Source of the DNA: Bugula neritina
Taxonomy: Eukaryota; Bryozoa; Gymnolaemata; Cheilostomatida; Bugulidae
Length of the DNA: 64,000 bases
Direction of reading: 5' to 3'
Assembly (NCBI GenBank): GCA_964035545.1
Contig: OZ037770.1
Span: 3,887,662 to 3,951,661 of the forward strand
The notes under the pieces are model-generated. The model worked only from the letters and a program-made list of their open reading frames with translations. It was not told where the DNA came from and searched no databases. Positions 47,559 to 50,700 of the stretch are shown in pieces. The translations under genes were made by a program, and so were the position numbers. Position 1 is the stretch's first letter; every line of letters starts with the position of its first letter.

Positions 47559-47708
47559 TTAGGAGTTTTCTTCTCTACTAAGCCCATCGAAGCCAGGAAA
47601 CAGGTAAAGTCTTTTACGGAAAGGAAGAGTCTTCCAGATTACAATCAAATTCCTGCTTCTCTCTGAATCTTCATCTGGACACAGTTTCCTAACTAGTTTA
47701 GTCTGTAC
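47559..47708 (-). CDS. Pseudocaspase exon 16: p10 C-terminus and stop
   Basis: Acceptor CTCTACAG, phase 0. Begins [10 protein letters not shown] and contains [20 protein letters not shown], then PGF and 9 more residues to TAA 47559-47561. The [14 protein letters not shown] ending is the typical last strand of caspase p10 subunits. Confidence 0.88.
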   Translation of the reverse strand, partial: VQTKLVRKLCPDEDSERSRNLIVIWKTLPFRKRLYLFPGFDGLSREENS

Positions 47709-50700
47709 CTGTAGAGTAAGTAATGACTAGTAAGATTGTTTATCAATTCACTATTATAGCTGTGATAAAATGTAAATTTCAGCTTTTAGAATATTGTTTC
47801 CTACTTTTAACAAATATGAACAGCAAACACTTTGGGAATTGTCTACCGGAGTCATATCAGATGGCATATAGCAGTACAGTGGCACTAGTTATTAGCAAAC
47901 TACAAGAACATATTGACAAGGAAGAGAAACTATAATCAATATAGTGAGCCAATATATGCTAAAGGAATTGTAAGAGCAAAAACTACCAGTTAAACTGGAG
48001 AAAACTAGGAAGGACCTTCTGTTACTAAAACTAAAGTAGACATCTTCTTTTAAAAGACAAAAGGGTTCAAACATAGAAATGAATAAAATGATATGATGAG
48101 AAATAATATTTTAATTTCTTAAATAAAAGTTAAACTAGCCAAAAAAGTATTGTGATTTTTAAACTTTTAAAGTTGAAATAGTTTGTGATTTATAAACCCA
48201 CCTGCTGAAAGATGGTGTAGAGATCCCGGTGACAGGCATGTTTGTAGATTGAAGATACTAAAGCTCTAATCATAGGAGATCCATACTCAGCATGTCTCTT
48301 TGATGCTAAAATACAATTAAGTGCAACCAAAATTTAGGTTTATAGCCAGACCAAGTTTAACAGGTTTTAGTTATGGCATAGGCCTATCATATTTAAAATC
48401 TCAAAGTTCTGGAACACATTTTACTTTTTTCAGTTTAGAAGTTATTAGAATCAAAGCGCTTACAAAATGCGGGAATAATACAAAATTGGTAAACCACATC
48501 TTATATAAGGTACAACAGCTCAGACAAACTTATAGCCAATCACTGTCTCTTATTGTACTTACAACAGATGTTACTCTTTAGAACAAGAAGATTATCAACA
48601 TCCAGTCTGGTCCATCGCTCTTCTATTCTAGGTGCTGGTGGTAAGACAGGTCTGATGGGTCTTATTACACTGGGTGTTTCAGGATATACAATATCATCAT
48701 CAGGTTCAGAATGTGTAGAAGAGACAGCTTCAGTTTCTTCTTCTTGAGGTGCTGCAAGACCAGATCTGTCTGGATTTACCTCAATGTTTGCTGCAACACA
48801 AATAATTTAGTTATCAGGGAAGTAAGATAGATCAAAACATCCATTTTTGTAACAAAGTTGCCTAACCAATTCTATATGACACATTTCTGAAGATATTCCA
48901 TTTTTTTTGTAAAAAATCATCTTAATGAAACAAAGAAGTTTTGACTACTGTGTAACCACTCAAATAAGTGTGTCCGTTTTTATTACAAAACAATATTCAC
49001 CTTCGCTGGAAGCTTCTAGGATGACAACTGTAGGCTTAGGCTTTAAACTCAAAGGAGCGAGCAAATCATAAAAGTCTGTAAGGTTGACCTTCTCAAGGTC
49101 AGTTCCATAGATGCAGTTATCTTCACTACCATGAGTCATAATAACCAGTATTTGACAACCCAAGCCATTGTTTTTTTCTCCTCTTATCTCAGACTTCACA
49201 GCAGACATCATTTCCTACAAATTTGGAAATAACTATAATAATATTATATAATTGATACAAGGTTATGATAACTGAATAAAGGAATAATTTTCCAACTTGC
49301 AAAAACAAAATTTTGACCAGCAATAAACATGATTTGGGTTTTTTATTTAGGCCTTATTTTGAAACATTGATAAACTAAATAGTCAGGTGATTGTGTCAAT
49401 TTTTAAGGTTTGACGAAACAAGCGTCAGGTTTCATATAGATAAACTGATTGAATACTATTGCTATCAGTCTAACAATATTATACCTCTGCTTTTAGGTCT
49501 GTGTGTGTCTCAACATCAAACTTGAGAGATTTCAACATGAGCGACATATTCTCAACATCAGCATCTGAACCTTCCCTGCACAAGTCTGGTCTTTCAACAA
49601 AGTTCTTGTTGTTTATTATCAGAGCTTTCCCTCTCTCTCTGGTCATACTGAACACCTGGATACAATTTTCAGACAATCGCATACAGTTGTGACAAACAAG
49701 TATGTATATTGACAGTATATTTTGAAGCACTCCAAGAAAAATAATTACAATTATTCTAGAGCTCAAGATGCCATTTGGAGCTTCAAAGTTGGAAGTCTCA
49801 TAGAAAGCAGTATAGTGCACTCTCTTGCAAAATCAATTTTTTATTTTTATGCTAGGTTTTAAGTTCATTACTTTTTAGCTAAGTTGAATAAAAAAAATTT
49901 GTTTAAAAGATCTATTGCCAGCTTTACCAACAAAACATTTAAATAGTCAATTAAGTGTTAATTGGTATTCTGGCACGAGTCATTCAGGATATGATGTAAT
50001 GAGGTTACAAAATACAAGTTATTACACTGCATGACTATACTTTATTGAAAATTTCTTTTATTTAACGTTAAGTTTTTACAAAACAAGCATGTATTTGCAA
50101 GGCTGTAAAACTAAATAAGGACCATTTATGGCAACAATAAAATTTGTTTGCATATAACACTTTACTGGCCTTAAAATAGACCATGGTCTAATTTATGTAA
50201 ACATAATTTTCTAAACCAAACTATCTGCAAAACATTCACTTAGCTTACAGATGCAAATGATTGCAATAGAACATTATGGTAAATTCAACTTTAAGCTTGA
50301 AGGTCGGAAAAGAAATCATACTATAAAATGTTTGCCCAACTAGGATTACTCTATATGATCATAGGAGTTACTACTGGAAAATCCCAACCCTTCATCCCAA
50401 GCAATTCCTCTGATTTCTATTTATTATTCCTTCAGCCTTCAGGTTCTCTTAGCCTCTGACCTTTCTAGGAGTACTTCTACTGCTACTACTACTCTTCACT
50501 AAAGGTCAAAAAAGCCCAGAAAAAATTGCCCTGCACCTCCACTGGAATTCAAATGGCAGAAGTCTAACTTTCAAGCATGCAAGGCAGGATAAACATTACA
50601 CCACAAGCACTAATAAGTGATCTCCACACAACAGATGCCTCCTAACCATGACAACCAATTAAACCCTAAACTAATAAAAGCAGAAAAGAAACTATTATGG

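Follow-up and report, generated by a model that had tools for sequence, protein, structure and literature searches.

A bryozoan gene family that appears to join LRR, Roc-COR and caspase-like domains, in which some members carry Ser in place of the catalytic Cys

The window analysed here is a 64-kb stretch (64,000 nucleotides) of the Bugula neritina genome, and its minus strand carries 138-nt LRR exons, a Roc-COR frame and a run of small exons encoding a caspase-like domain (Table 1). Several unrelated features share the stretch. On the minus strand, GC-rich DNA (0.52-0.59) at 12670-18490 contains reverse transcriptase, RNase H and integrase open reading frames (ORFs) and represents an LTR-type retroelement. 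On the plus strand, a pair of overlapping ORF fragments that lie in different frames (9220-10303) matches the double jelly-roll-like domain (with E=1.6e-13 and E=3.3e-29), and we take it to be what is left of an element of the Polinton or virophage kind; a 336-aa ORF on the same strand (20536-21546) has no Pfam match at 0.001 and by eye resembles a type B DNA polymerase. A minisatellite with a 38-base unit (46.7 copies, 96% matches) occupies 35244-37019, and no Rfam families were found within the 64-kb window.

Table 1. Exons and frames of the LRR, Roc-COR and caspase-like parts of the window gene
Feature	Coordinates	Strand	Basis
Exon H: caspase p10 end and stop codon	47559..47708	-	splice chain, Pfam
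Exon G: p10 start, SKRH...GS	48202..48305	-	splice chain
Exon F: linker between p20 and p10, acidic and proline-rich	48563..48790	-	splice chain
Exon E: catalytic His-Gly and box EASSE (Ser for Cys)	49001..49214	-	splice chain, active-site reading
Exon D: p20 start, RGKALIINN and CREGSD	49485..49655	-	splice chain, Pfam
Exon C: COR-caspase linker, acidic	50892..51034	-	splice chain
Exon B: linker	51236..51322	-	splice chain
Roc-COR frame, from internal ATG 53476	51592..53476	-	splice chain, Pfam
Final LRR part of Roc exon; TGA end overlaps ATG 53476 (frame break)	53473..53602	-	frame reading
LRR exon, 138 nt	54898..55035	-	LRR exon search
LRR exon, 138 nt	55726..55863	-	LRR exon search
LRR exon, 138 nt	57319..57456	-	LRR exon search, splice reading
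LRR exon, 138 nt	57968..58105	-	LRR exon search, splice reading
LRR exon, 138 nt	58639..58776	-	LRR exon search, splice reading
LRR exon, 138 nt	59316..59453	-	LRR exon search, splice reading

The caspase-like domain of the window gene is real. A sequence-only reading of this DNA had proposed that five small, phase-matched exons encode it; indeed, all five (D-H, minus strand, 49655-47559) have AG/GT borders and compatible phases, exon H closes with TAA, and the chain matches Peptidase_C14 with E=1e-26 to 3.6e-26 over positions 1-213 of the 233-position Pfam model. Comparison with a structure database had been expected to return caspases, and a PDB sequence search with the window protein yielded 175 distinct sequences at E<=0.001, the 60 matches listed all being caspases or CED-3. 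The p20 opening, His-Gly and p10 features named in that reading are likewise legible: the catalytic His-Gly is kept (THG), as are CREGSD (RxGSD) and SKRH (SxR), and we take the Arg residues of RxGSD and SxR to be those of the caspase substrate pocket. As had also been noted, the nucleophile is altered, the active-site box GAA GCT TCC AGC GAA reading EASSE with Ser in place of the catalytic Cys of QACxG. The proposed joining of the caspase to Roc-COR is supported as well, in that the Roc-COR exon, exons B and C and the five caspase exons form one open frame of 993 residues.

Upstream of the caspase, Roc is recognised by Pfam in the window copy (E=2.9e-8 to 5.6e-8) and in all 35 aligned family proteins, and the residues G69, K70, S72, D118, G120 and G121 (P-loop and DxGG) are invariant across the alignment. 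COR-A is weak, falling below the Pfam cut-off in the window copy (E=0.0033) and being found in 16 of the 35 proteins (best E=1.8e-9). The LRR frame of the window copy stops at TGA 53475-53473, which overlaps ATG 53476, a Met within the Roc frame. This LRR-Roc junction is 5 nt longer than that of the sister genes, leaving the LRR out of register directly before Roc; the 17 paralogues that could be read at this point, among 20 loci fetched, all keep LRR and Roc in one frame. In the genome-wide list, the Roc-COR open frame measures 640 aa in the window and at least 677 aa in the other 69 copies, the single exception being a partial match with 550. Barring an assembly error or a translation start at 53476, the link from LRR to Roc is severed in the window copy, which speaks against full function of this copy and may make it a pseudogene. 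The fusion of LRR, Roc-COR and caspase originally proposed for this locus is thus supported from Roc-COR to the caspase but not at the LRR, which is out of frame with Roc. Further damaged Roc exons were found among the 20 loci (a stop in L009 and L026, an interrupted start in L018), indicating decay in progress within the family.

The window gene is one of a large LRR-Roc-COR-caspase family. Starting from 133 first-look candidates, of which 70 were scored, a search of the genome (215.8 Mb, 295 contigs) revealed at least 70 copies of the Roc-COR exon; 68 of these are stop-free, one of the 68 being partial. Downstream of at least 64 of the 70, a same-strand caspase exon follows within 10 kb, and for at least 62 it does so within 5 kb, with a median distance of 1,349 b. 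Exons D-H were matched in all 20 of the fetched 10-kb paralogue loci and the Roc-COR exon in 19 (two partial); the Roc exon of L010 is situated just outside its fetched stretch. The recurrence of the same exon set behind Roc-COR in the paralogues places the association beyond chance, and linkage in at least 64 of 70 cases rules out a chance neighbourhood of the two. Across the whole genome, at least 176 Peptidase_C14 matches were counted, some of them within long open frames on contig C7.

Annotated proteins provide a second view of the same arrangement. In the bryozoan Watersipora subatra, one annotated protein, P0029, combines LRRs and Roc with the first caspase exon (Peptidase_C14), after which it ends; together with the genomic linkage, it supports an architecture common to a family. 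P0029 was the only Peptidase_C14 carrier among 34 matches to the whole chain, most of the others being single unspliced exons. A search with its residues 480-896 recovered, besides P0029 itself, four Watersipora proteins and one ena protein, none of which has Peptidase_C14; the annotation of the Watersipora relatives describes them as MFHAS1 homologues. When the caspase served as query, 13 proteins were recovered, all from Bugula neritina and with at most 96% identity to the loci over exon-sized pieces; the catalytic exon is absent from the Bugula neritina models P0035 and P0042.

The catalytic residue varies within the family, with Cys in 52 and Ser in 10 of the 62 catalytic exons read. The window copy and 30 paralogues account for all ten Ser exons (encoded by TCC in L010 and the window copy and by AGC in the other eight) and for 21 Cys exons (TGC in 19, TGT in 2). 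From a second set of 32 fetched stretches, 31 were readable, and Cys was found in every one; 28 of these 31 exons adjoin a listed Roc-COR exon (the exceptions being L068, L069 and L070), and L049 was dropped from the census, as its stretch ends upstream of the box. His-Gly, RxGSD and SxR are retained in 10 of 10 Ser copies. In L029, a Cys copy, the catalytic His is replaced by Leu (MTLGRED), which would constitute another route to inactivation. Most Cys copies have the boxes EACSG, EVCSG or HACSG, and not QACxG, their first residue often being Glu or His, and their activity is consequently not assured. The nearest exon-E relative of the window copy, L013, has the box EACSE; because Cys is present in 52 of 62 exons, including that of L013, Ser is the derived state. 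The same count excludes Ser as the family norm, and the suggestion that this is an established pseudocaspase therefore does not extend to the family state. The alternative offered with it, a mere local mutation, fares no better, given that Ser occurs in 10 copies, has at least two origins and is accompanied by purifying selection.

The at least two origins of the Cys-to-Ser change emerge from AU tests on exon E, which were run with the active-site box removed on 31-row trees and on 27-row trees that omit the 4 of 31 rows without exon F, G or H. The groups were named after the trees had been seen, and the p values should therefore not be taken strictly. A single group of all Ser copies is rejected (p 1.8e-6 with 27 rows, 4.8e-11 with 31 rows), one of the AGC copies is not (p 0.10, 0.17), and the window copy with L010, the two TCC copies, is borderline (p 0.049, 0.046). 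With this last grouping only borderline once the box is removed, we no longer favour a common origin of the two TCC copies; parsimony on exon E requires four changes. On exons D, F, G and H, neither the AGC group (1.9e-5) nor the pairing of the window copy with L010 (8.6e-14) survives the test, and a group seen on other exons, comprising L017, L020-L023 and L035, is rejected on exon E (0.00135, 4.2e-5). The catalytic exon and its neighbouring exons differ in history, a conflict that we read as exon exchange or gene conversion.

Purifying selection persists without the nucleophile. Pairwise dN/dS (Nei-Gojobori) over exons D, E, G and H is 0.33 (0.25-0.45) for ten Ser copies versus 0.32 (0.23-0.45) for 17 Cys copies; the divergent L037 and L038 were left out of the Cys sets, and L030 and L031 were left out because their exons G and H lie outside the fetched stretch. 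Within exon E alone, the eight AGC copies give 0.27 (0.15-0.45), compared with 0.37 when all ten Ser copies are taken and 0.31 among the Cys copies. Gene conversion from Cys copies could contribute to the apparent constraint on the Ser copies.

The LRR exons present a different pattern, with excess amino-acid change at exposed positions. The collection comprised 31 LRR exons, each 138 nt long and bordered by AG/GT, six from the window and the remainder from 11 paralogue loci; the search model is itself 138 nt long and may miss exons of other length, and two rows were dropped (one L024 match lacking a donor and one match at a locus edge). Across these 31 exons, compared between paralogues and not between individuals, the ten x positions of LxxLxLxxN have an omega of 1.33, the remaining positions one of 0.53 (0.40-0.66). 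At six of the ten x positions, picked post hoc, omega reaches 2.64 (bootstrap 5-95% 1.92-4.05). Position 39, which lies outside the x set, is also variable. A repeated block beside TA repeats was observed twice among the LRR exons of the window (~54060-54360 and ~55980-56270).

How the window copy should be regarded depends on the weight given to its damage. A strong rival account, to which we concede somewhat less than an even chance, treats it as a decaying pseudogene in which Cys loss and frame break mark relaxed selection, the family otherwise consisting of active receptor caspases. The LRR-Roc frame break, present here and in 0 of 17 readable paralogues, suits this account, as do the stops or broken start in the Roc exons of L009, L026 and L018. 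However, from Roc onwards 993 residues are read without interruption up to the stop codon, with all splice sites intact, dN/dS in exons D, E, G and H is 0.26 between the window copy and L013 and 0.29 between the window copy and L010, the Ser copies are constrained as a class, and 7 of 10 of them (L010, L011, L015, L016, L019, L021 and L035) have a stop-free Roc-COR exon. A functional reading of another kind, in which the Ser copies are working serine proteases that use Ser as nucleophile with the kept His, seems to us scarcely credible. Both codon routes arrived at Ser, and His is retained in 10 of 10 copies, but one of the routes neighbours a changed fifth box residue (EASSE), and known caspases are inactive when their Cys is mutated to Ser.

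The structure of the locus itself admits two further accounts. The window copy might be an assembly chimera of two family members, which we judge improbable. Near-identical families are difficult to assemble, and from ~48695 to 47616 (~1.1 kb, introns included) the window copy shares 99-100% identity with L036, located on another contig (C6 versus C7), compared with 78-95% over most of the stretch upstream of ~48695; yet mosaic histories are also seen elsewhere, in L021 and L035 versus L017, L020, L022 and L023, as exon exchange predicts. Very unlikely, too, is the proposal that Roc-COR and the caspase are two neighbouring genes duplicated jointly as a block. It draws on the fact that the fusion is known here from genomic exons alone, on the annotation of four of the five Watersipora relatives without a caspase and on the Bugula neritina models that contain caspase parts without Roc, whereas the exon chain is open and phase-matched, the caspase exon opens at a splice acceptor and is not preceded by any in-frame exon that would belong to the caspase only, and the two parts are joined in Watersipora P0029.

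The reading that we prefer, and to which we give an even chance, is that the window gene belongs to a bryozoan family of putative one-chain LRR-Roc-COR-caspase receptors with derived, nucleophile-less members. Judging from domain content, the LRRs would act as the sensor, Roc-COR as a GTPase switch and the caspase as the effector, all within one chain. Binding of a ligand by the LRRs would change the nucleotide state of Roc, COR would bring chains together, and the caspase domains would then dimerise and cleave themselves or their partners, leading to cell death or inflammation. Possessing His and the substrate-pocket residues but no nucleophile, the Ser copies would be expected to pair with Cys copies or to hold substrates uncut, and might thus be decoys or regulators that damp or gate the Cys members. 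The variability of the LRRs would suggest that microbes or non-self colonies are recognised. As for the window copy, it would be either an LRR-less Roc-COR-pseudocaspase translated from ATG 53476 or a recent pseudogene. On a broader and more tentative view, possible although we attach considerable doubt to it, the family would form a one-piece LRR-GTPase-caspase repertoire for immunity or colony allorecognition, with LRR cassettes under diversifying selection and with nucleophile-less exons, produced by repeated loss, that are exchanged between genes to give enzyme-dead regulators.

Well-studied animal systems divide sensing, switching and killing among receptor, adaptor and caspase; if translated as read, most members of the bryozoan family would unite the three in one protein. 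Bryozoans are colonial and show allo-incompatibility, according to the available sections of PMC8195603, and in those of the Bugula genome paper (PMC7576161) allorecognition genes are merely expected, and the similarities to Alr1 are weak. An expanded and death-linked family with variable LRRs would offer a concrete candidate for bryozoan allorecognition. Moreover, Cys and Ser paralogues side by side would provide a natural experiment on inactive caspases gaining regulatory roles.

NLR receptors combine sensor repeats, an NTP switch and a death output in large gene families. The bryozoan family likewise joins these elements in a large family, but it uses Roc-COR instead of NACHT and places the caspase in the same chain. 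The architecture is not wholly new, as there is a bacterial precedent: in the sections of PMC8195603 at hand, caspase is among at least 24 C-terminal domains of bacterial LRR-Roc-COR proteins, and the metazoan counterpart named is DAPK, which has a kinase. The bacterial LRR-AP-GTPase(Roc)-COR proteins described in those sections resemble the bryozoan family in their fast-evolving N-terminal LRRs, Roc-COR switch, C-terminal effector and several paralogues per genome (PMC8195603). Unlike them, the bryozoan family is animal and intron-bearing, comprises at least 70 Roc-COR exons that almost always share one effector, and has LRR exon cassettes and nucleophile-less members. The new architecture announced in the sequence-only reading must thus be narrowed, LRR-Roc-COR-caspase proteins being reported in bacteria in the same partial text (PMC8195603); no animal ROCO-caspase was found in the open-access literature, which does not imply absence from print.

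Closer relatives in domain order are the MFHAS1/MASL1-type animal ROCO proteins, which share LRR-Roc-COR; in the portion of the ROCO review available, MFHAS1 consists of LRR and RocCOR alone (PMC6337361), and the bryozoan family adds a caspase behind. A word search of that portion found no mention of caspase (PMC6337361). Brown algal LRR-ROCO genes, numbering 9 to 47 per species and proposed to be immune receptors, also have LRRs on separate exons and under diversifying selection, as described in the accessible part of PMC11378527; a word search of this part found no mention of caspase, which the bryozoan family has. With regard to the Ser copies, the sections available of PMC7159879 call ~70% of the effector-position caspase domains of one bacterial conflict system inactive. 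The bryozoan Ser copies would resemble such domains, and also cFLIP as treated in the sections of PMC8195603 consulted, in having a non-catalytic caspase fold as regulator or peptide binder (PMC7159879; PMC8195603). They differ from both in their domain partners and in standing within a family that mostly retains Cys.
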